52,446 bases of DNA from Limisphaerales bacterium (GTDB lineage Bacteria > Verrucomicrobiota > Verrucomicrobiia > Limisphaerales > UBA11358): the NCBI GenBank assembly GCA_003134375.1, contig PLAY01000106.1, forward strand, positions 1 through 52,446, written 5' to 3'. How positions within the stretch are numbered: position 1 is the stretch's first letter; each line of letters starts with the position of its first letter. Shown here one piece after another: positions 37,433 through 49,185 of this stretch. Under the pieces are notes generated by a model. That model was not told where the DNA came from. It made no database searches and was given only the letters and a program-made list of their open reading frames with translations. A program made the translations under genes and the position numbers.

Positions 37433-38487
37433 ATGCTTTCAAGGGTCTGTTCCGCTGCGCTCAATGGCATTGAAGCGTATCCCGTCGAAGTCGAAGTCAA
37501 CGCCGGTTACGGCGACACCCTCGTCGTCATCGTCGGCCTGCCGGACGCCGCGGTGAAGGAATCGCGCGATCGCGTCTCCACCGCGCTCACGAATTCCGGT
37601 TTCAAATTTCCGATGGGCCGCACGACCATCAACCTCGCGCCCGCCGACGTGAAAAAGGAGGGGCCGAGCTTTGATCTGCCCATCGCCGTCGGCATGCTGG
37701 CCGCCAGCGAACAAATCGAAACCGACCAGCTCGACAATTTCATCATCGTGGGCGAACTCGCGCTGACCGGCGCGGTGCGTCCGTGCAAAGGAGTCTTGCC
37801 CGTCGCCCTGCGCGCCCGCGCGGATGGCAAAATTGGCGTGCTCGTTCCGGCGGAAAACGCCTCTGAGGCCGCGGTCGTCGAAGGGCTGCAAGTCATTCCG
37901 GTTCAAAATTTGCGCGAGGCCGCCGGTTTTCTGGAAGGCGAAATCAAAATCGCTCCGGCCAAGGTGGACATTGCCAAAATCTTCGATCAAGCGCACGACG
38001 ACGATCTGGATTTCGCCGAGGTCAAAGGCCAGGAAAACGTGAAACGCGCCTTGGAAATCGCCGCCGCCGGCGGACACAACGCGCTGCTGATCGGCCCGCC
38101 CGGCACCGGCAAATCCATGCTGGCCAAGCGGCTGCCGACGATCCTGCCGCCACTGACTTTGGACGAAGCGTTGGAAACGACGAAGATCCACAGCATCGTC
38201 GGTCTGCTGGCACCGGGCCAGGCGCTGGTGACGCGGCGGCCGTTTCGCACGCCGCATCACACGGCGAGCGACGCCGGCCTGCTCGGCGGCAACGTCAATC
38301 CGACGCCGGGCGAAATTTCGCTGGCGCACAACGGCGTGTTGTTTCTGGACGAACTGCCGGAGTTCAAGCGCAGCGTGCTGGAGACCATGCGCCAGCCGCT
38401 GGAAGACGGACGCGTGACCATTTCCCGCGCGGCGGGCACGATGACTTTTCCGTCGCAATTCATGCTCATCGCGGTGATGAATCCGAC
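37433..38487 (+). pseudogene. comM: comM 5' part (YifB/Mg-chelatase-like AAA+ helicase), interrupted
   Basis: ComM helps branch migration during natural transformation. This part holds the N-terminal Lon-like domain ([54 protein letters not shown]), Walker [18 protein letters not shown], the [12 protein letters not shown] element and the Walker B region [14 protein letters not shown]. It ends at LIAVMNP followed by the AC of the attachment core, 352 codons in. The frame runs six more foreign codons and stops at 38509. The remaining 157 codons lie at 48712. Joined at the AC they read MNPTPDGKMPHESR..., giving 508 residues, close to the family norm of about 506. A functional ComM is not expected while the island is in place. 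Confidence 0.95.
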
Positions 38488-39758
38488 AGGTTTCGTTGCC
38501 TTTTTGTGAGTTCTTCAGAAGATGGTAGGTATGACCATGTTATATCAATTGTGTCGCCTGAAAGGGTGATCGTTTCAACGATGCTTTCGATGATTCGCCG
38601 CTTTTCCTCCTGGCTGAATTTAGGCCATTTCCGGTGCAGGCCGGTCGCTTCCGCAAGGACTTCTTCGGCGGAAATCTGGTGCATTTCGATGGCGTCAATC
38701 TCGGCTTGGAGCTTGGGCAATTCGGCTGTCAGGGCGTGTTCCTGTTCTTCAAGCGGTTTGTAAACCTTTCCGAAGCCTTCGGGCGTGATTTGGTCTTCTT
38801 GGTATAGCTGGTATGTTTTGCGCATTTCGGTGCGGACTTTTTCGATCTGCCGGTTATGCGCTAGAAGCCGGTTCTTCTTGTCGGCAAGGTTTTGATTCGC
38901 GCTCTCAAGGTGAACTCTGATTTTCTCCTGGGACACGAAGAAATCATGTAATTCGTCGTGAAAGACGCCCTCGATGTCCTCGACGGTGATTTTGTTCCGG
39001 CACTTCGGGCAGACATATTTTGGGGAGCGGGAAAAGACATACATCTTTTGACCGCAGCCGCAATGAAGCAGCCCGGCGAACAGATGGACGGGCTTCCGTC
39101 CTAGTGGCCTCTGCGCCTTTCGCGCGTCCAAAGCGTCATTGCACTCTTTCCACAATTCATTGGACACAATCGCCGTAACGGGGCTGAAAACCCATTCGGC
39201 TTCCGGTTTGGGACCGAGTTTGCCCTTGCCGTCCCGATAGGTGTGATTGGAGCGATACAGCCCCTTTGCCGTGGTGTCCTGAATCAGCCTCAAAACCGTC
39301 GTGTCGGTGAATTTGCTGCCGTTTCTGGTGCGGTAGCCCGTCTGATTGAGAATCCGCGCAACGCCTTTCATGCGCTTATTCTTGGCGAAAAGCTCATACA
39401 TGAGCTTGCGGACGGGCGATTCGATGGTATTCACAACGAGCTTGTTGTCTTTCCACTGATAGCCGAAAGGTGCGGCACCGCCCAAACTCTTGCCGAGTTT
39501 TGCCCGGATTTTAATTGAAGCCTTAACGCGGTCTGCGATTTCCTCCCGTTCCCATTGGGCCATTGCCGCAATCATGGTGTAGAAAAGGCGTCCTGCGGGC
39601 GATGAAGTGTCAATTTTCTCCTGGAGGGAGATCATGTCCACGCTGTGCTGGCGGAACAAATCGGCGAATTCCAAAAGCTCCTTGGTGTTTCTGGCAAGGC
39701 GGGCGAGCTTGGAAAAGATGAGGCCGGTGATGTGGCCGCGCTTGATGTCGGCGATCAT
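38466..39758 (-). pseudogene. Serine recombinase (integrase), N-terminally truncated
   Basis: A serine-type site-specific recombinase of the resolvase/large-serine family, the natural candidate for having inserted the island. The surviving part starts inside the catalytic domain (MIADIKRGHITGLIFSKLAR, LARNTKELLEFADLF, AAMAQWEREEIADRVKASI). It then has the recombinase domain (GKSLGGAAPFGYQWKDNK), a zinc-ribbon with four Cys (LHCGCGQKMYV, KYVCPKCRNKI) and a long coiled coil. The first roughly 70 residues with the nucleophile Ser (usually RxS near residue 10-15) are missing. Other DNA abuts near 39760. The C-terminal codons NLSDSSPR come from comM antisense. It should be catalytically dead, fixing the island. 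Confidence 0.88.
38471..38506 (+). other. attL of the comM island
   Basis: comM DNA (GCGGTGATGAATCCG) runs to the core AC at 38486-38487, then 7 bp (AGGTTTC), then the arm GTTGCCTTTTTG at 38495-38506. The arm is the inverted partner of the one at the right end (48693-48704), also 7 bp from AC. The integrase reading frame crosses this site and takes its stop from comM. Confidence 0.8.
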
Positions 39759-39763
39759 CCGCT

Positions 39764-39921
39764 TAGTTGAGGAACATAAAGGTGATGCGGATGCGATTCA
39801 GTTTATCGCTGACATGCTAGAAACTGGCGATCCAGAAAACGACGAATTTGCCATTATGTTACGGACAAATCGTCACGATCCAAACGCCTTAGCGAGAATC
39901 GTCCAGATATGTGAGAACTGA
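39764..39921 (+). pseudogene. 3' fragment of an unrecognised gene
   Basis: The frame VEEHKGDADAIQFIADMLET, then GDPENDEFAIMLRTNRHDPN to QICEN and stop, looks like genuine protein: acidic, helical and well balanced. It has no start and begins at the point where the recombinase is cut. It is probably the tail of a gene fused here by a deletion. I do not recognise the family. Confidence 0.4.
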
Positions 39922-39938
39922 GAATTGCTGAACATTCC

Positions 39939-40163
39939 TCACTTTCCCCTCATCCGAAACACCACAGCCAGCTCCATTGCATCGAAAATATCCATGCGGC
40001 TGTCTTCGCTTTCCCACGGTTTGCGTTTCGGCGGCAAACCGACCGGTGGCAACCAACTGCCCAAGGCCAAGAGTTGATTGCGAAATTTCTTGAATGCGCT
40101 GGTTAATGACAGACATGTGCTTACCATTGCGGACAAATCGGTTGCCTTGAGCAGCTTGCTCAA
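39939..40163 (-). CDS. Short hypothetical protein or gene tail
   Basis: A 74-codon frame reads ATDLSAMVSTCLSLTSAFKK and ends AMELAVVFRMRGK. The last residues resemble a second small tail in the island (YELAVVFWMSK near 44270), so the two may be remnants of related genes. The start is uncertain and no domain is recognised. It lies between the truncated recombinase and hsdM. Confidence 0.3.
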   Translation of the reverse strand: MSKLLKATDLSAMVSTCLSLTSAFKKFRNQLLALGSWLPPVGLPPKRKPWESEDSRMDIFDAMELAVVFRMRGK

Positions 40164-40234
40164 AATGCAATTTTTGTGTTAAAATTTACGCACAATAAAT
40201 AAGGTTCAGAATCTACATAAACTAAATCTCATTC

Positions 40235-41689
40235 ATGTTTGAACAAGCCTTCAAAAACATCGACGCCGTTCTCCGAAAAGAAGCCGGATGCACCACGGAA
40301 CTCGATTACACCGAACAATCCTCGTGGCTGCTGTTCCTGAAATATCTCGACGGGCTGGAACAGGATCGGGCGACGGAAGCCGAACTCGACGGGAAAAAGT
40401 ATTTCTACATCCTCGACAAGCCATATCGCTGGGAAACGTGGGCCGCGCCCAAGGGCAAAGATGGCAAGCTCGACCACAACGCCACGCTGACCGGTGACGA
40501 CCTCCGCGATTTCGTCAACGGCAAGCTCTTTCCCTACCTGCACGGTTTCAAGCAGCGGGCCACGGGGCCGGACACCATCGAATACAAGATTGGCGAAATT
40601 TTCGGCGAGATTAAGAACAAGATTCAGAGCGGTTACAATCTGCGCGAAATCATTGACCACATTGACGAACTGCGCTTTCGCTCCCAGACTGAGAAGCACG
40701 AGTTGTCGCATCTTTACGAAGCCAAAATCAAGAACATGGGCAACGCCGGGCGTAACGGCGGCGAGTATTACACCCCGCGCCCGCTCATCCGCGCCATCAT
40801 CCAGGTCGTGCGGCCAAAGATTGGCGACAAAATTTATGACGGCGCGTGCGGCTCGGCGGGCTTTTTGTGCGAATCGTTCGTTTATCTCACATCCAAAGGC
40901 AAGCTCACCACCAAAGACCTAAACACGCTCCAGACACGCATGTTTTACGGCAAGGAAAAGAAGTCACTCGCCTACGTCATCGCCATCATGAATATGATTC
41001 TGCATGGCATCGAAGCGCCGAATGTCATCCACACGAACACCCTTTCCGAAAACCTCGCTGACATTCAGGACAAGAACCGCTACGATGTGGTGCTGGCCAA
41101 TCCGCCCTTTGGCGGCAAGGAACGGCCGGAAGTGCAGCAAAATTTCCCCATTCGCACCGGCGAGACCGCGTTCCTGTTTCTCCAGCATTTCATCAAGATT
41201 CTCAAAGCCGGCGGACGCGGTGGCGTGGTCATCAAGAACACGTTTCTTTCGAACACCGACAACGCCTCCGTGAGTCTGCGCAAGCTCCTGCTGGAAAGCT
41301 GCAATCTCCACACCGTGCTTGACTGTCCCGGCGGCACGTTTCAGGGTGCGGGTGTGAAGACTGTAGTGCTATTCTTCGAGAAAGGTAGCCCTACACGCAA
41401 AATCTGGTTCTACCAGCTTGACCCTGGACGCAATCTTGGCAAGACCAACCCGCTCAACGACGACGATCTTGCCGAGTTCGTGAAGCTACAAAAGACATTT
41501 GCCGACTCGCCTAAAAGCTGGAGCTTGGACGCCAAGGACATTGACCCGGCGACGTTTGACCTCTCCATGAAAAACCCGGAAGGCGGCGAGGAAATTGTGC
41601 ATCGTAGTCCGAAGAAAATCATGGATGAAATCGCCGCGCTGGACGCCGAGAGCGCGGAAGTGCTGGGGAACATCAAGGCGCTGCTATGA
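40235..41689 (+). CDS. hsdM: Type I restriction-modification methyltransferase subunit
   Basis: The N6-adenine DNA methyltransferase subunit of a type I system. At 484 residues it is full length. It has the helical N-terminal HsdM domain (LDYTEQSSWLLFLKYLDGLE, FGEIKNKIQSGYNLREIID). The SAM motif I is KIYDGACGSAGFLCE, preceded by the GGEYYTPRPLI entry. The catalytic motif IV is VVLANPPFGG. GRGGVVIKNTFLS is the usual strand after it. The stop overlaps the hsdS start (ATGA), so the two are coupled. The cognate hsdS and hsdR are both truncated. This subunit may still methylate if the short HsdS dimerises, but that is uncertain. It is cargo of the comM island. Confidence 0.92.
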   Translation: MFEQAFKNIDAVLRKEAGCTTELDYTEQSSWLLFLKYLDGLEQDRATEAELDGKKYFYILDKPYRWETWAAPKGKDGKLDHNATLTGDDLRDFVNGKLFPYLHGFKQRATGPDTIEYKIGEIFGEIKNKIQSGYNLREIIDHIDELRFRSQTEKHELSHLYEAKIKNMGNAGRNGGEYYTPRPLIRAIIQVVRPKIGDKIYDGACGSAGFLCESFVYLTSKGKLTTKDLNTLQTRMFYGKEKKSLAYVIAIMNMILHGIEAPNVIHTNTLSENLADIQDKNRYDVVLANPPFGGKERPEVQQNFPIRTGETAFLFLQHFIKILKAGGRGGVVIKNTFLSNTDNASVSLRKLLLESCNLHTVLDCPGGTFQGAGVKTVVLFFEKGSPTRKIWFYQLDPGRNLGKTNPLNDDDLAEFVKLQKTFADSPKSWSLDAKDIDPATFDLSMKNPEGGEEIVHRSPKKIMDEIAALDAESAEVLGNIKALL

Positions 41690-42525
41690 AGAACGGGTGG
41701 CAATGGAAACCATTGGGCGAAGTCTGCCAGACAGGTTCTGGCGGCACACCCTTGAAAGACAAAAAGGAGTATTACGAGGGTGGAACAATTCCTTGGCTTA
41801 TGAGCGGGGAGGTGAGTCAAGGCGAAGTTCGGGAAGCTACCAGATTCATCACACAGAAAGGGCTGGACAACTCTGCTGCCAGAATTTTCCCAAAAGACAC
41901 CGTATTGGTTGCGATGTATGGCGCGACGGCTGGTCAGGTAGGTATATTAAGATTTGAAGCGACCACAAATCAGGCGGTTTGCGGAATCTTTCCGAACAAA
42001 CGATTTGTTCCAGAGTTTCTGTTCTATTTGTTGCTGTCAAAGAAAGAGGAGTTGGTGGCGCAAGCAACTGGCAATGCACAGCCCAACATTTCACAAATCA
42101 AAATCAAGAACACAGAAGTTCCGATTCTACCGCTCCCCGAACAGCAACGGATCGTCGGCACCCTCGACGAAGCGTTTGAAGGCATCGCCACCGCCAAAGC
42201 TAACGCCGAAAAGAACCTCCAAAACGCCCGCGCCCTTTTCAAAAGCCATCTCCAATCAGTTTTCACCCATCCCGGCGCGGAGTGGGCGGAGAAACGTCTT
42301 GAGCAGATTGGAACAACGCAGACTGGTTCGACGCCGAAGACATCCGACAGAGCAAACTATGGCGACTTCATTCCTTTCATAAAACCGGCTGACTTCAACA
42401 CAGACGGTTCGCTAGATTACGAAAATGATGGACTCAGCGAGAAAGGGTTGTCGGTAGCTCGCAACGTTGCTGCCGGGTCAGTGCTGATGGTTTGCATTGG
42501 CGCGACCATTGGCAAGTGTGGCTAG
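41686..42525 (+). pseudogene. hsdS: Type I specificity subunit, 3'-truncated
   Basis: Gives the HsdM/HsdR complex its target sequence. The first recognition domain is whole (MKNGWQWKPLGEVCQTGSGG... to NAQPNISQIKIKNTEVPILP), as is the central coiled-coil spacer (PLPEQQRIVGTLDEAFEGIA). The second recognition domain starts (WAEKRLEQIGTTQTGSTPKT) and breaks off at SVLMVCIGATIGKCG, where a complete protein would go on for about 120-150 residues. The DNA passes straight into mid-hsdR sequence, so one deletion removed both the hsdS end and the hsdR beginning. Half-size HsdS proteins can act as dimers in some systems, but here the second half-domain is broken. Confidence 0.88.
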
Positions 42526-44246
42526 CCACGCAAGCCTATAACGATTTTACCTCCTTTGCCGCGTTTGCCGACGACGCCCTCGTGCGCGTGAAGCCGGAGG
42601 ATATTCGCAAGAAAGGCAAAGTGCCAAAAAACGCCAGCGTGTTCTTCACGATTTTCCAGACGTTTATGAGCGGGCCGGAAAAGGACGGAAAGCCGTCGCC
42701 GTATTTTGGCGAGTATCCGCCGGACTTTTTCGATTTCATTGTCATTGACGAGTGCCATCGCGGTGGCGCGAACGACGAAAGCAACTGGCGCGGCATCATG
42801 GATTATTTTGCGCCTGCCGTGCAACTCGGCCTCACCGCCACGCCCAAGCGGAAGGATAACGTGGACACCTACCGCTATTTCGGCGAGCCGGTCTATGTCT
42901 ATTCGCTCAAGGAAGGCATCAACGACGGTTTCCTCACGCCGTTCCGGTTGAAACAGTATGAGACGACGATTGATTACTACCGCTACACTTCGGATGACAC
43001 CGTGGTGGAAGGCGAGATCGAGGCGGGCAAACTTTACAAGGAAGCAGACTTCAACCGGAGTATCGTGATTCAGGAGCGGGAAAAGAAGCGGGTGCAGCTC
43101 TTCATGGAGCAAATCAACCAAAACGAAAAGACACTGGTGTTCTGTGCGAACCAGGCCCACGCGCTGCTGGTGCGCGACCTCATCAACCAGATGAAGACGA
43201 GCAAAGACCCTAACTATTGCCACCGCGTCACGGCGAATGACGGCGAGATCGGCGAGCAATGGCTGCGGGAATTTCAGGACAACGAGAAAACAATTCCAAC
43301 CATCTTGACCACGTCGCAAAAACTTTCGACCGGCGTGGACGCGCGCAACATTCGCAATATCGTCCTGATGAGGCCCATCAATTCGATGATTGAGTTCAAG
43401 CAGATTATAGGGCGCGGCACGCGGCTGTTTGACGGGAAGGATTATTTCACGATTCATGATTTCGTGAAGGCGCATCTGAATTTCCAAGACCCGGAATGGG
43501 ACGGCCCGCCGCAGGAAGAAGAACCTTGCCCGAAATGCGGCGCACGTCCATGCGTCTGTGTCCTGAAGCAGCCGAAGCCTTGCGAGGTGTGTGGCCAGTC
43601 GCCGTGCGAATGTCCTTGTCCGAAATGCGGCAAACGCCCCTGCGAGTGTGAGCGGAGAAAGAAGGTAAAGGTGAAACTGGCTGATGGAAAAGAGCGCACC
43701 ATCCAGCACATGATGATGACGACATTCTGGCATCCCGACGGCACGCCAATGTCGGCACAGCAATTCATGGAAATGCTGTTCGGTAAACTGCCAGACTTTT
43801 TCCAGAGCGAAGAAGAATTGCGCAAGTTGTGGAGTGCGCCGGACACGCGGGCCAAGTTGTTACAAGGGCTGGCGGAAAAAGGTTTCGGGCACGACCAACT
43901 CGTGGAAATGCAGAAAATCATTGATGCGGAAAAGAGCGATTTATTCGACGTACTGGCGCACGTGGCCTACGCATTGCCGCCAGTGACGCGCGAAGTGCGT
44001 GCCGACCATGCGCGGGTGTATATCAATTCCCAATTCAACGCCAAGCAACAGGCATTCCTTGATTTCGTGCTGTCCCATTACGTCAGCGTCGGCGTGGAAG
44101 AACTTGATCAGGCAAAGCTCACGCCGTTGCTCCGGCTCAAATACCACGACTCCATTGCCGATGCCGTGGCCGATCTTGGCAGACCGGATGAAATCAGCAG
44201 CGTATTCGCAGGCTTCCAAAAGTATTTATACAGTAAAGTTGCTTAA
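42526..44246 (+). pseudogene. hsdR: Type I restriction subunit, 5'-truncated
   Basis: The ATP-driven translocase/nuclease subunit. What remains starts at the helicase region: FTSFAAFADDALVRVKPEDI, the DEAD-like motif II in FIVIDECHRGG, GLTATPKRKDN, and motif VI NSMIEFKQIIGRGTRLFDGK. A Cys-rich linker (CPKCGARPCVC, CEVCGQSPCECPCPKCGKRPCEC) precedes the EcoEI-type C-terminal domain, which is complete to SVFAGFQKYLYSKVA. The nuclease domain and Walker A, about the first 350-400 residues, are gone. The frame formally starts at 42492 inside hsdS. Restriction activity should be absent. Confidence 0.9.
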
Positions 44247-44268
44247 TTCTTTTGGAACAGCCCCTCTT

Positions 44269-44350
44269 TCAAGATTTACTCATCCAAAACACCACGGCCA
44301 GTTCGTAGATGCCGGCAAACAGTTCGCGAACCGGTTTGCCGTATATTGCC
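44269..44350 (-). pseudogene. Tail of an XRE-like regulator
   Basis: The frame ALAYEAIYGKPVRELFAGIY, then ELAVVFWMSKS and stop, matches the way many phage-type HTH regulators end (EAIFGKPVRELFAGLY-like). The HTH itself is missing. It joins, out of frame, the nuclease stub at 44351-44467. Confidence 0.45.
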
Positions 44351-44467
44351 TCATACGCCAGGGCGGTTGCCAAGCTGCATTTGCAGGTTGGTATCAATGA
44401 TCGCCCCGGCTTGCAGGACGGGGAAAAACAGAGCCAGCGTGCTTGCAACGAATGAGATTCGTTTCAT
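44351..44467 (-). pseudogene. Signal-peptide stub of a non-specific endonuclease-like protein
   Basis: The 38-codon frame MKRISFVASTLALFFPVLQA, then GAIIDTNLQMQLGN, has a clean signal peptide. It continues with the segment that opens secreted DNA/RNA endonuclease (NUC)-like proteins in this phylum. It stops three residues later, where an XRE tail begins in another frame. The catalytic domain is absent. This is a deletion scar. Confidence 0.5.
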
Positions 44468-44556
44468 GCCCACGGTTTAACAGAGCGCGTTAAAAACTGC
44501 GAGAAAGAACCTGTCGCCATGAGTGACGCTCCGTGTGACGATGTGCCGGGACATTC

Positions 44557-44591
44557 ACAAAAAGGCAACGACTAAAGGGTTCGTTGCCTTT
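44557..44591 (-). terminator. Intrinsic terminator of HTH cassette 1
   Basis: On the minus strand, stem AAAGGCAACGA / TCGTTGCCTTT (11 bp, 9-nt loop) is followed by TTTTTGTG. It lies just after the HTH gene at 44606. The same 12-mer CAAAAAGGCAAC (44558-44569) forms the attachment arms. Confidence 0.75.
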
Positions 44592-44605
44592 GGCAGTTTT
44601 GGGCC

Positions 44606-44890
44606 TTATTTCGGCAGTTTCTCGAACGGGTCATAGCCCATATACGCGATGATCCGGGAGTGATACGGGACGGTCGGAAACAACCTGTCGCATTCCCAAA
44701 GACTTAGAGACCTTGCGCTAACCCCCAGTATTTGAGCGGCTTTCGATTGGCGGATTCCTGCTCCGAACCGTTTCTTCTTGAGATGCTGGCCCAAGGTCGT
44801 AGGCTCCTTGGCGATTGGAAAACTCCGTGTCCAGACTGGCGCTACGTCTTTGCGGGCAACGCGTACAATGCGGTCGCAAAAAGGCAACAT
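44606..44890 (-). CDS. Small HTH protein, cassette 1
   Basis: A 94-residue XRE-like DNA-binding protein. The HTH covers about residues 33-80: TLGQHLKKKRFGAGIRQSKA, then AQILGVSARSLSLWECDRLF. It ends in IIAYMGYDPFEKLPK, a common closing motif of this small family. The N-terminal 32 residues (MLPFCDRIVRVARKDVAPVW) show no known domain. A paralogue at 48422 is identical at 84 of 94 positions. The ATG lies 7 bp inside an attachment-like core, and an in-frame stop stands close upstream. It may regulate excision, as HTH proteins of integrative elements often do, but this is inferred from position only. Confidence 0.75.
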   Translation of the reverse strand: MLPFCDRIVRVARKDVAPVWTRSFPIAKEPTTLGQHLKKKRFGAGIRQSKAAQILGVSARSLSLWECDRLFPTVPYHSRIIAYMGYDPFEKLPK

Positions 44891-44897
44891 CGCGCAC
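44877..44897 (+). other. Internal attachment-like half site
   Basis: CAAAAAGGCAAC, 7 bp (ATCGCGC) and AC repeat exactly the inner half of attR at 48693-48713. The far side (CGACTTTATTGAGG) does not match comM or the left arm. It looks like the right end of an earlier or second element integrated in tandem. Confidence 0.6.
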
Positions 44898-44947
44898 CGA
44901 CTTTATTGAGGTCAGTTGCATGAACTTGTGATTGCATACTGTTTTTA

Positions 44948-44991
44948 TTGAATCACTTGCAAAGCCTCTCAAACAGGTAACGTTTGTGGGA
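44948..44991. repeat. Island-internal duplicated segment
   Basis: TTGAATCACTTGCAAAGCCT followed by CTCAAACAGGTAACGTTTG is repeated with changes at 47908-47951 (TTGAGTCACTTGCAAATCTT...). Both lie beside small HTH genes. It supports the view that related elements were stacked here. Confidence 0.5.
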
Positions 44992-45020
44992 ATGTAAATT
45001 GCCATTTACAAATCCACGGA

Positions 45021-46949
45021 TTACTTTGCGTGATTCTTCCGCAGAACTTCATGCAGGGTTTTCAGCATGGTTTCGGCCGTGTAGGGCTTGGGAATGAAAT
45101 ACCGGACGCCGGCATCCCTGACTTTGGCCATGCCGCCGACGGAAGCCGCACCGCTGGAACCGACAATCTTGACGTCCGCATTGATGGCTTTGAGCGCGAT
45201 GATGGTGGTCGGACCATCCATGATCGGCATGACCATGTCCATGATTACCACGTCGATTTCCTGTCGGCGGTGCGCATAAAGGGCAACTGCTTCAACCCCA
45301 TTCATGGCTAGCAGAACGCGATAGCCGGTACGTTTCAACACCTTTTGCACGAGACTGAGGATAGGCTCCTCGTCATCCACCACCAGCACCAGTTCATTGT
45401 GCCCGCGCAGCAACCCGAAGTCTTCCTCCAACGCTTTCTCCGCGGCCACCGGTGTGCGATTGGCGGGAAAATAAACCTTGAAGGTGGTGCCTTTGCCCAC
45501 TTCGCTCTGGCAAAGAATGAAACCATCATGGCTGTTGACGATGGCCAGGGTCGTGGACAAGCCCAGCCCCGTGCCCTTGCCGGGGTCCTTGGTTGTGAAA
45601 AACGGATCAAAAATCTTGTCCTGGATCTCCCTGGGAATTCCCACCCCGGTGTCCACCACGCTGATGACCACATACGGGCCGGGCCGGGCCTCCAGATTCA
45701 TGGCGGCATAGGTCTCGTCCACCATCGCGTTTTCCATGTGCAGGGACAGTTTGCCGCCCTTGGGCATGGCATCGCGTGCATTGACACAGAAATTCAGCAG
45801 GACCTGGTGTAACTGGGTCGGGTTCCCAGTGATGGTCCAGAGGTCCTCCGGGTAATGTAACTCAAATTCCACCGATTTGGGGAAAGTCCCGTGAACGATC
45901 TGCCTGATTTCACGGGCGATGTGTTTGGGATCGACCAGGATGTGCATGCCCTCCGTTCCGCGCCCAAAGGTCAGCACTTGTTTAACGATGTCCGCTCCAC
46001 GCTGCACGTTGGCTTCCAAGGCTTGCAGCAGCCTCCGTCCGTCTGCATCCGTGACTTTTTCCTTCAACACCTGCACCGCGATCATGAGCGGTGTCAGCAC
46101 GTTATTGAGATCGTGCGCGATGCCGCTCGCGAGAGTCCCGATGCTCTCGATGCGCTGGGTGCGAAAATACTGGGCTTCAAATTTTTTCTTCTCCGTGATG
46201 TCGGTGCTGATTTCCAGAACAGATTTGGAGACTCCCTGGCTGTCGCGCACCAGGGTCCAGCGCGCTTCAACGAACACTTCCTTTCCGCTCTTCGTCCGGG
46301 CGGCAAATTCACCATGCCAGTAGCCGGTTTCCAAAATCGTTTTTCGAGCTTCTTCATATTTTGAGGCGTTAAACCCGTCCTTGGGCAAAAGGTCCTCCAG
46401 CTTCCGACCGACTGCCTCTTGGGCCGTCCAGCCGTAGATCCGCTCGGCGCTCCTGTTCCAATACAGGATGCGGTCTTCCATATCGCGCACAATGATGGCG
46501 TCGTAGGCCAGGTCCAGTAACCGGGCCTGTTCGCCGATTCGAACCTCGGCGTTCTTGCGTTCGGCAATTTCCGATTGCAGCTCTCCGATGGCTTTGGTCA
46601 GGTGCGCCGTCTTCTCTTTGACTTGTGATTCCAGTTCGCCCCGCAAACACTTTCCCTCCTGCTCTATCCGCAAGCGTTCTTTGAGCAGGGTCTCGATGTG
46701 GATCATGCCAGTCAGCAGCAACAGCGAAATGAACGAATACACACACTCGATTTCAACCCCCAATTGCGCGCCGTTATTGAACGACATCAAGGATTGAATC
46801 AAGTGGAGCAGCGCCAGAAGTGAAAAGGCCCAGAACAGCGACCAGCCCACACGCGCCGTTCCGAAGATCCGGTTCAGTCGCAGAGCGTAGCCAGCGACGA
46901 TGAATTGCAGCGCGCCATTTACGAAACCCATGACCTCTGTGAAGCTCAT
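45021..46949 (-). CDS. PAS-domain hybrid histidine kinase
   Basis: A membrane sensor kinase of 642 residues. Three hydrophobic segments lie in the first 85 residues (MGFVNGALQFIVAGYAL, VGWSLFWAFSLLALLHLI, VYSFISLLLLTGMIHI), followed by a coiled coil. A PAS/PAC domain spans about residues 138-260 (LDLAYDAIIVRDMEDRILYW). The HisKA box has the phospho-His in LASGIAHDLNNVLTPL. HATPase motifs are LLNFCVNARDAMPKGG, VVDTGVGIP and GKGTGLGLST. A C-terminal receiver domain (LVLVVDDEEPILSLV, Asp in VVIMDMVMPIMDG, KPYTAE) makes it a hybrid. No separate response regulator is adjacent. It is divergent from a hemerythrin gene, so oxygen or redox sensing is possible but unproven. Confidence 0.93.
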   Translation of the reverse strand: MSFTEVMGFVNGALQFIVAGYALRLNRIFGTARVGWSLFWAFSLLALLHLIQSLMSFNNGAQLGVEIECVYSFISLLLLTGMIHIETLLKERLRIEQEGKCLRGELESQVKEKTAHLTKAIGELQSEIAERKNAEVRIGEQARLLDLAYDAIIVRDMEDRILYWNRSAERIYGWTAQEAVGRKLEDLLPKDGFNASKYEEARKTILETGYWHGEFAARTKSGKEVFVEARWTLVRDSQGVSKSVLEISTDITEKKKFEAQYFRTQRIESIGTLASGIAHDLNNVLTPLMIAVQVLKEKVTDADGRRLLQALEANVQRGADIVKQVLTFGRGTEGMHILVDPKHIAREIRQIVHGTFPKSVEFELHYPEDLWTITGNPTQLHQVLLNFCVNARDAMPKGGKLSLHMENAMVDETYAAMNLEARPGPYVVISVVDTGVGIPREIQDKIFDPFFTTKDPGKGTGLGLSTTLAIVNSHDGFILCQSEVGKGTTFKVYFPANRTPVAAEKALEEDFGLLRGHNELVLVVDDEEPILSLVQKVLKRTGYRVLLAMNGVEAVALYAHRRQEIDVVIMDMVMPIMDGPTTIIALKAINADVKIVGSSGAASVGGMAKVRDAGVRYFIPKPYTAETMLKTLHEVLRKNHAK

Positions 46950-47278
46950 CCAAACTCCTCATGCATGAAAGCGGCAGTGCCGCCTTCTAAAACCTGACCA
47001 CCTCAAAAATTGAGGCACATCGTACTTTGATCTTTGCGAATAGCCCTTTATTACCCATTTGTATGACAAGTGTAATGGAGGGGCGGTATTTGTAAAGTCA
47101 GGACTGCTTCGAGCTAAAGATTTTCAGAACAATTATCGACTGATGAGAATTCAGTTATGGCGCGCTTTTAACGACTGGGCGTGCGAATTGGCGGAAAATA
47201 ACGCGTATTCAAACCGCGCTTGGTATCAGTCTTGCTATATCAAGTGATGCGACAAACTGCTGGCAAACCATTACGATT
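46950..47278. other. Divergent kinase/hemerythrin promoter region
   Basis: A 329-bp, relatively AT-rich spacer between two divergent start codons. It should hold both promoters, but no consensus pair stands out clearly. A 62-codon frame at 47059-47247 has no recognisable features and is not called as a gene. Confidence 0.4.
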
Positions 47279-47866
47279 ATGAAAACAAAACTTTACGTCG
47301 AATGGAAGGATTCGTTTAGCGTGAAAAACGCGCAAATCGATTCCCAACACAAAAAGATGTTTCGGCTACTTAACAAGTTGCACGATTTGTTGCAGAAAGG
47401 CGGAGATGTGAAGCGGCTGGGAAAGATTATCGTCGCGGTGCAACAATACGCCATACTTCATTTCAATTGCGAAGAACTGCTGATGTCGGCGTGCAACTAT
47501 CCGCAATTGAACGAGCACAAAAAGGCGCATGAGGAGTTTACCAGCCGCTTCAATCAGTTCCTGAAACGCGCGAAAACGGAAAACGAAGACATCTCGTTAG
47601 AGCTTTTCCTTTTTCTCAAGGACTGGTTGTTGGATCACATAACGACCGAGGACAAGGCGTACATCCCATTCGTAGTTGCGTGGAAGCGAGATCGTCACCC
47701 GGTGGGTCAAGCGGGAGTCAATCATCTCGCATGGTCTGGAACGATGCGGAATCCTGAACTGTCACCGAAAACTCAAAGTCGTTGGCGTCACGCCAGGCGA
47801 TGCAAGAGGCATCCGGTCGGGGGGACGTTTACGTCCCCGCGCCAACTCGTCGCCAAATACGTGTGA
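47279..47866 (+). CDS. Bacteriohemerythrin with odd C-terminal tail
   Basis: A di-iron O2-binding four-helix protein. The ligands are in place: YVEWKDSFSVKNAQIDSQHK (His and the E/Q region of helix A), YAILHFNCEELLMS (HxxxE), NEHKKAHEEF (HxxxH) and LLDHITTEDKAY (HxxxxD). The family ends near AYIPF, about residue 137. Here about 58 more residues follow (WKRDRHPVGQAGVNHLAWSG... to LVAKYV), rich in Arg and Pro and without a domain. The tail may come from a lost stop or a frameshift into spacer DNA. The gene starts 330 bp from a divergent histidine kinase. It may store, carry or sense oxygen for that kinase. Confidence 0.85.
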   Translation: MKTKLYVEWKDSFSVKNAQIDSQHKKMFRLLNKLHDLLQKGGDVKRLGKIIVAVQQYAILHFNCEELLMSACNYPQLNEHKKAHEEFTSRFNQFLKRAKTENEDISLELFLFLKDWLLDHITTEDKAYIPFVVAWKRDRHPVGQAGVNHLAWSGTMRNPELSPKTQSRWRHARRCKRHPVGGTFTSPRQLVAKYV

Positions 47867-47912
47867 GCGGGTCTTTGCGAGCGGGGGCGGGTTGCATGCT
47901 CCTTTTGTTGAG

Positions 47913-48314
47913 TCACTTGCAAATCTTCTCAAATAGGCAACGTTCTGGGGAGGTTTCAGAAATTCCGCATTTCCAACAGTATGAACGGTTGATTCGTTTT
48001 TTAGGAACCAGCACAGGTAGTGTGTAGCCAAGAAATTCCCGAATTTTCTTTGTCATCCTACGCGATGGGGAGGTGATACCGCGCTCCCAATTGCTGACCG
48101 ATGCGGAAGAAATTCCGATCTTTGCGGCAACGTCTGATTGCAGCCAGTGCAGTTCCAAACGGTGCTTCTTGATTTGCTCGCCGGGTGTCTGTGGCTGTGC
48201 CGGAATTCGCTGGTTCAATTTCCAATGCCGTGAGTATGGCCGACGCGGTCGGGAAGTCTGAACAGGACAAAGCGAGAGAAGGAGCAGTATATTTTTGATT
48301 TGGAGTGATTGCAT
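47913..48314 (-). CDS. HTH protein, middle copy
   Basis: A 133-residue XRE-like regulator. The HTH is at about residues 43-92: TPGEQIKKHRLELHWLQSDV, then AAKIGISSASVSNWERGITS and MTKKIREFLGYTLP. It is related to the cassette HTH proteins by the shared layout (leader, LG/PGE-HxKKxR, closing FLGY) but is far more divergent. The C-terminal 30 residues with several Cys (SYCWKCGISETSPERC) are unusual. They are encoded by the duplicated segment at 47908, so the end may be a fusion. The start is uncertain. Confidence 0.65.
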   Translation of the reverse strand: MQSLQIKNILLLLSLCPVQTSRPRRPYSRHWKLNQRIPAQPQTPGEQIKKHRLELHWLQSDVAAKIGISSASVSNWERGITSPSRRMTKKIREFLGYTLPVLVPKKRINRSYCWKCGISETSPERCLFEKICK

Positions 48315-48373
48315 AAACTATCATGCAATCATCACTTCGTTAGGAAGGCAGTAATTACGGGTGACCGCCTTTC

Positions 48374-48407
48374 ACAAAAAGGCAACGACTAGGGGTTCGT
48401 TGCCTTT
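48374..48407 (-). terminator. Intrinsic terminator of HTH cassette 2
   Basis: Stem AAAGGCAACGA / TCGTTGCCTTT with an 8-nt loop, then TTTTTGTG on the minus strand. It is nearly the same as the one at 44557 and carries the 12-mer CAAAAAGGCAAC at 48375-48386. Confidence 0.75.
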
Positions 48408-48421
48408 GGCTATTTCGGGCA

Positions 48422-48706
48422 TTATTTCGTCAGTTTCTCAAACGGGTCATAACCCACATACGCGATAATTTGAGCGTGATAGGGAATGGTTGGAAAAAGC
48501 CGGTCACATTCCCAAAGACTCAAGGACCTTGCGCTAATCCCCAGTATTTGAGCAGCTTCCGATTGGCGGATTCCTGCTCCAAACCGTTTCTTCTTGAGAT
48601 GTTCACCAAGGGTTGTAGGCTCCTTTGCGATTGGAAAACTCCGTGTCCAAACAGGGGCTACGTCTTTGCGAGCAACGCTTACAACGCGGTCGCAAAAAGG
48701 CAACAT
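48422..48706 (-). CDS. Small HTH protein, cassette 2, at the island's right end
   Basis: A 94-residue paralogue of the protein at 44606 (84 of 94 residues identical), with the same HTH (TLGEHLKKKRFGAGIRQSEA, AQILGISARSLSLWECDRLF). The ATG at 48706 is chosen by comparison with that copy. The frame stays open upstream through the attR core into comM antisense (HPACA). Because the site lies at the 5' end of the gene, integration cuts it away from its natural upstream DNA. In the excised circle that upstream DNA would be the recombinase 3' end, in the same frame. Promoter activity from the comM side is unknown. Confidence 0.75.
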   Translation of the reverse strand: MLPFCDRVVSVARKDVAPVWTRSFPIAKEPTTLGEHLKKKRFGAGIRQSEAAQILGISARSLSLWECDRLFPTIPYHAQIIAYVGYDPFEKLTK

Positions 48707-48727
48707 CGCGCACGCCGGATGGGAAAA
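48693..48727 (+). other. attR of the comM island
   Basis: The arm CAAAAAGGCAAC (48693-48704), 7 bp (ATCGCGC), core AC (48712-48713), then comM DNA GCCGGATGGGAAAA. It mirrors attL about the AC core. Joining the comM sides at AC restores the reading frame. Confidence 0.8.
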
Positions 48728-49185
48728 TGCCACATGAATCGAGAAGCTCGCCGCGTGAAATCCAAAATTTTCTGGGCCGGATATCCGGGCCGCTGCTCGA
48801 CCGGATTGATTTGCACGTGGAGGTGCCGCAGGTGAAATTCCGGGAGATTGCCGGGGACCGCACGGGCGAAACCTCGGCGCAAATACGCGAGCGCGTCGTG
48901 GCCGCGCGGAAACGTCAACAGTCGCGTTTTGCGCACAAGCGGAAAATCACCTGCAACGCCCTGATGGGACCGAAGGAGCTCAAGGACTTCTGCGCGCTGG
49001 ACGAGGCGACCAAAGAACTGCTCAAGAACGCGATGGCCGATTTGAATCTGAGCGCCCGGGCCTACGACCGGATATTGAAGGTGGCGCGGACGATTGCCGA
49101 CCTGGCCGGCTCGGAAAAAATCCTGAGCGACCACATTTCCGAGGCCATTCAATACCGTTCCCTCGACCGGCAGATTTGGAGTTAA
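48712..49185 (+). pseudogene. comM: comM 3' part, interrupted
   Basis: The C-terminal 157 codons of the ComM/YifB ATPase. Starting from the core they read TPDGKMPHESRSSPREIQNF, then LGRISGPLLDRIDLHVEVPQ (the sensor-arginine region R-I-S-G-P-L-L-D-R-I-D is diagnostic), and the C-terminal Mg-chelatase domain (LNLSARAYDRILKVARTIAD, SEAIQYRSLDRQIWS). The frame matches exactly that of the 5' part at 37433 when joined at the AC. Without the island this would be one intact gene. The remaining 210 bp to the next gene (49186-49395) show no clear feature except a ribosome site near its end. Confidence 0.95.

Follow-up and report, generated by a model that had tools for sequence, protein, structure and literature searches.

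What becomes of a site-specific recombinase gene when the attachment site used for integration lies inside that gene? The question is raised by a mobile element of a Limisphaerales bacterium, on contig PLAY01000106.1 of assembly GCA_003134375.1, which was analysed over 52,446 nucleotides (hereafter the window). The element occupies positions 38486–48713 and interrupts the comM gene of its host, with the gene of a large serine recombinase (LSR) at one end and a helix-turn-helix (HTH) gene at the other. Rebuilding of the uncut phage-type site, attP, brings these two into a single reading frame. As read from their sequences, relatives of the element from many bacterial groups also have attP within the recombinase gene, and the state of the gene follows the state of the DNA. 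The element may in this way carry its own switch between the free and the integrated form.

The element in comM and its rebuilt attP

The 5′ half of comM (YifB), core included, was found on the plus strand at 37433–38487 (TIGR00368, 3.5e-136). The frame resumes at 48714 in the 3′ half (48712–49185, plus strand), which was placed from the frame of the restored gene and by comparison with locus L001. When the element was deleted in silico, the comM frame was open again and read MNPTPDGKMPHESRSSPREIQ; the full-length comM of the relative L172 has MNPTPDGKMPHESRSSPREI over the insertion point. The core dinucleotide AC is present at 38486–38487 (attL copy) and at 48712–48713 (attR copy). An exact sequence check confirmed what the initial annotation had claimed, namely that the left arm GTTGCCTTTTTG (38495–38506) and the right arm CAAAAAGGCAAC (48693–48704) are perfect reverse complements and that each lies 7 bp from the core, so that the rebuilt attP is the dyad GGCAAC-N7-core-N7-GTTGCC. 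When 200,000 random junctions were made from window sequence, one gave a symmetric run of at least 12 complementary bases within 40. The joined attP, searched as a 91-base query against the genome to which the window belongs, returned the two halves only and no joined site.

The recombinase gene (38466–39758, minus strand) ends in the integrated state with ..SDSSPR, a tail read from the antisense strand of comM. Joined at the AC, its frame reads ...KRQRNLCAMLPFCDRVVSVARKD... and runs without a stop into the HTH gene (48422–48706, minus strand, with an ATG 5 nt past the core), as had been predicted for the circle. With attP uncut this HTH would form the C-terminal domain of the recombinase; its Pfam match, HTH_31, was under the cutoff of that family. 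A central dinucleotide common to attP and attB, together with a dyad attP, is what is expected of an LSR and is present here, and the location of attP within a recombinase gene that integration splits is shared with the suicidal (SSV-type) integrases. From its domains the enzyme is a serine and not an archaeal tyrosine recombinase: PF00239 (Resolvase, from profile position 55) and PF07508 (Recombinase) were above cutoff, and the zinc ribbon PF13408 remained below it (20.7 bits for a cutoff of 25.3).

The window copy is truncated at its 5′ side. About 70 N-terminal codons of the relatives are absent from the open reading frame, and the DNA likeness to relatives ends at 39761–39768 (eight matching stretches, some being repeat retrievals of a single genome). 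The catalytic serine region, which in most listed relatives has the form VGIWIRVSTEDQ or a near one, is therefore missing, and the truncated copy probably has no activity in cis.

Joining of the two frames in related elements

One genome per species was scanned for relatives of the LSR; 127 were found and 80 kept, and a comM match was also present in 55 of these 80 loci. The strict finding of a core was applied to 53 attL loci. In 42 of them the frame passes over a core (CA or GT) and continues in the antisense strand of comM; in L031 a stop precedes the core, and the remaining 10 yielded no core. Within the genus, 9 of the 30 HTH loci examined, the window genome included, adjoin a comM 3′ half. 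Among 48 comM 3′ loci examined for an HTH, six were full-length comM genes; of the 42 split 3′ halves, 41 had an HTH in the flanking sequence retrieved.

The LSR end and the HTH end of the same genome were then joined at the core, giving 37 joins from 33 genomes. L256 was omitted, and five of the 42 attR loci gave no join: L226, with neither core nor HTH, and L228, L240, L248 and L252, with no attL core. An open, in-frame LSR–HTH fusion was obtained in 36 of the 37 joins (the core of L036 was set by the strict recheck). Against an expectation of one third the binomial P value is 2e-16, which is only a guide as the rows are related. Past the core the LSR frame is in phase 1 or in phase 2, depending on the lineage, and the HTH frame has the complementary phase. 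The DNA arm GTTGCC is constant, but its translation is not: one set has ALPF there and the other RVAFLP, each with the LSR phase that matches. In a quick tree of 46 recombinases four phase changes were counted, and for two of these well-supported branches leave no alternative. Phase shifts under constant arms need a coordinated change at both ends, which argues for selection acting on the fused LSR–HTH frame. Taking these sequences together, the recombinase gene of the clade almost certainly spans its own attP, and the uncut element encodes an LSR–HTH fusion.

Several loci of the comparison deserve mention on their own account. On contig G463:C11 (L207–L209), HTH matches lie beside both comM halves with two recombinases facing each other in between, a layout suggestive of the inversion of one element. 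On G464:C210 (L030) a full-length comM is located near a split comM 5′ half; this island may bring its own comM. The comM of L006 is 91% like that of the window over 47 residues, and the taxon labels Formivibrio, Klebsiella and Akkermansia look doubtful for the metagenome bins L006, L037 and L061.

Natural fusions and uncut junctions

The initial annotation had predicted that full-length fusions would exist in nature, and they were found. When the junction region was used as query, 25 matches were obtained among 5.8 billion proteins; of these, P0003 is a fusion with the predicted junction (RQQNLCAMLPFCDR; 54% identity over 99% of the junction region). A second fusion query gave nine matches: seven fusions (P0026–P0032) and two unfused sister proteins, which go on as ATKLQGFIAATS or ATKPQGFIAATN, read from comM. 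The single match of a third query, P0035, was again a fusion. The nine database fusions came from fusion queries and are not an unbiased sample. No match to P0003 was found in the viral contigs searched.

Six uncut junctions were seen in genomes, three of them intact fusions. The latter are single frames, stop to stop, of 688 (L027), 616 (L038) and 648 (L059) amino acids, and each of these genomes has one full-length comM match. The dyad spacing of the window recurs in the uncut L027 and L038; L059 has the variant TTAGCAA/TTGCTAA with 8-bp spacers.

Other integration targets

In four clade members from four genomes (L014, L090, L091 and L092) the 3′ end of the recombinase gene runs into a tRNA-Ser gene. 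Examination of the genomes of this type (G057, G032, G009 and G473) covered six HTH loci. In three of the four genomes there is an HTH end with the common stretch TGGCGGAAGGGG (right ends L288, L289 and L304); no HTH end was found in G009. The LSR and HTH frames join in register in 3/3 pairs, and both element ends are on one contig in G057 only. For a possible third target (L093–L098 with L115–L129), L093 and L095 joined to L117 and L129 were also in frame. This third case is only suggestive, because the ends come from different genomes and the register was set by shared RLG codons.

The HTH as a C-terminal domain

The annotation had pictured a switch between a fusion and a separate recombinase plus a separate HTH. 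The first half of this picture, fusion versus cut recombinase, is real and conserved. The second half depends on how the HTH would be started after integration. In-frame ATG codons were looked for within 60 nt of the core, starting with 40 copies; L219 and L237 were dropped, as the longest-frame rule had chosen the wrong frame, which left 38. An ATG was present in 11 integrated copies and lacking in 27. GTG or TTG codons were common near the core, and two more copies had an ATG farther upstream. With most copies devoid of a nearby ATG, we read the HTH mostly as the C-terminal domain of the recombinase, lost on integration; a separate HTH fits those cases where it has its own ATG, such as the close relatives of the window. 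The ratio of nonsynonymous to synonymous substitutions (dN/dS) of the HTH was 0.07–0.27 in 14 of 14 pairs, indicating purifying selection as a protein.

The predicted structure of the L038 fusion (mean predicted local distance difference test score, pLDDT, of 68) places the core codon at residue 513, within a linker (463–532) where pLDDT is under 50. The HTH is folded at 541–592 as a confident separate domain. The order of the uncut protein, as it can be followed in the sequences, is catalytic domain, zinc ribbon and coiled coil, then a loose linker whose codons are those of the attP dyad, and finally one or two HTH domains. On the same footing, integration into comM breaks the gene in the linker codons, leaving the body of the recombinase with a tail from antisense comM and the HTH stranded at the far end of the element, usually with no ATG nearby.

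A proposed role for the HTH in the uncut state

We propose that the gene is split at its linker, that the HTH serves the uncut state and that its loss commits the element to integration; this explanation is, overall, the likely one. In this model the HTH would act in the uncut state alone, most likely aiding the recombinase in choosing or using attP, and its loss on integration would lock the element in the integrated state. Excision would then depend on an uncut copy acting in trans or on some lower activity retained by the cut enzyme. For the role of the HTH taken by itself, that it works only in the uncut state and that its loss is what commits the element, the chances seem about even.

A number of observations weigh against the proposal. 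Three uncut junctions are not intact. L022 has an uncut dyad followed by a stop a few codons on, with no HTH in three frames of 480 nt. In L035 (G458) there is a stop within the HTH and the frame has decayed; L083 (G461) has a frameshift and a decayed HTH frame, and the comM matches of G458 and G461 are split or partial. A stop past the junction, which the annotation had named as the finding that would speak against it, is thus seen in L022, next to two decayed and three intact junctions. The circles of related elements that the annotation had proposed to look for did not appear: G459:C17 and G457:C14, checked whole, showed no terminal overlap and no free circle, and the uncut copies are therefore not shown to be free circles. 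Housekeeping genes are present on the contigs that hold the fused copies of G459 and G460, and a further, distant LSR shares the contig with each of the three fused copies. Among 379 sampled genomes of Patescibacteria, the phylum of G459, the clade was found in G459 alone, which was the query's own (the next best match had 33% identity); the other two fused genomes came from the scan of LSR relatives and not from this sample. The split comM of L226 had no HTH in the fetched flank, the join of L238 was out of frame, beside a second copy of that genome which is in frame, and that of L219 was in frame at the junction and broke within the HTH. The window and its close relatives have an HTH with its own ATG at the junction. 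Ahead of the LSR gene the motif GGCAAC/GTTGCC occurred 28 times over 93 loci where 24.5 were expected, which is no enrichment, and therefore no binding site of the HTH was found. GCAAC..GTTGC dyads were present past the right end in 3 of 42 attR loci versus none of 165 control segments.

It is possible, if rather doubtful, that the two forms of the enzyme are matched to the two states, the fusion performing attP × attB and the cut enzyme attL × attR with no separate directionality factor. A different C-terminus is indeed encoded by each state, and the LSR body is open over its full length in almost every integrated relative that was listed, with L031 among the exceptions; the tail of the cut enzyme is, however, antisense host sequence of widely variable length. 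The broader formulation, in which a widespread clade would set direction without a separate factor, integration rewriting the gene to an excision-competent form and excision restoring the HTH-bearing integrase, is a tentative one and perhaps slightly the easier to entertain. The HTH could instead regulate transcription of the element, and its fusion to the LSR would ensure that it is made from the uncut form only. We consider this unlikely: HTH_3-type domains occur in the seven fusions P0026–P0032 and many right ends have a second HTH stretch, but the sole motif tested was not enriched ahead of the LSR, and it would be strange for a repressor to be made as part of a recombinase.

Still less probable is that the HTH is a recombination directionality factor (RDF) made separately once the element is integrated. 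The junction ATG and the terminator-like hairpin of the window's group would suit an RDF, and engineered integrase–RDF fusions favour attL × attR (PMC5737554). Such a fusion made from the free form should nevertheless hinder integration, and the usual lack of an ATG makes a separate factor after integration less likely. Finally, an in-frame reading due to chance or to conservation of the att arms, with a fusion devoid of any role, would agree with the arm constraint on codons near the junction and with the three decayed uncut junctions, but is highly improbable in view of the in-frame joins across two phases, the nine database fusions and the equally in-frame tRNA-Ser site.

Cargo and repeated right ends of the window element

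The interior of the element begins with type I restriction-modification genes on the plus strand (40235–44246: hsdM, hsdS and a 5′-shortened hsdR); hsdS overlaps the shortened hsdR, as though the two had been joined by deletion. A second copy of the element right end follows at 44554–44897 (minus strand), with an HTH gene (44606–44890), a hairpin, an arm and a core AC at 44896–44897. It is an 86% repeat of 48393–48692, in register, and the similarity stops at the core. Repeated right ends in the island (44554–48713) and in the relative L164 suggest a serial addition of modules at one site. A hybrid histidine kinase (45021–46949, minus strand), a bacteriohemerythrin (47279–47866, plus strand; NF033749, 7.3e-37) as further cargo, and a related HTH protein (47913–48314, minus strand; HTH_3, 2.1e-12) come next, the last with a weak likeness (31%) to the right-end HTH. 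Past the stop of the right-end HTH, a terminator-like hairpin with the arms GGCAAC/GTTGCC lies at 48378–48407 on the minus strand (RNA fold of −15.5 kcal/mol, z of −4.1); the consensus scan did not pick it up.

Comparison with known systems

The gene which is taken as comM was the target of 12.4% of predicted site-specific LSRs (PMC10083194), and integration into what is taken as the same gene is the likeness of those enzymes to the present ones. The main text of that paper has no mention of HTH, helix-turn-helix, C-terminal or reading frame. Insertions of other elements into comM have been described in Acinetobacter (PMC11472951). Keyword searches of open-licence PMC papers brought up no description of an LSR whose gene contains attP and continues past it into an HTH. 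The best NCBIfam match of the window LSR, a truncated protein, was XisF, the fdxN element recombinase (NF041201), with 102.5 bits, far below the 375-bit cutoff of that equivalog.

Self-disrupting recombinases are described as exclusively archaeal in PMC8371274. The archaeal suicidal (SSV-type) integrases treated there likewise have attP within the recombinase gene, which integration splits; they are tyrosine enzymes with the catalytic domain in the C-terminal piece, whereas here the enzymes are bacterial serine recombinases whose catalytic body is kept. In the integration-dependent immunity of mycobacteriophages, as outlined in PMC9262239, attP also lies in a coding gene and the C-terminus of the protein is changed, but the gene is that of a repressor, a degradation tag is lost and the integrase is a tyrosine enzyme. 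The engineered serine integrase–RDF fusions likewise unite a serine integrase with a second protein; they are artificial and are not cut by recombination (PMC5737554). If our reading is true, self-disrupting integrases, described for tyrosine enzymes of archaea, would come to include serine recombinases of bacteria from many phyla. The arrangement offers a natural and testable answer to the question of how integration and excision could be controlled in such elements, and the natural fused and cut forms of one enzyme would be useful material on the direction of serine integrases.

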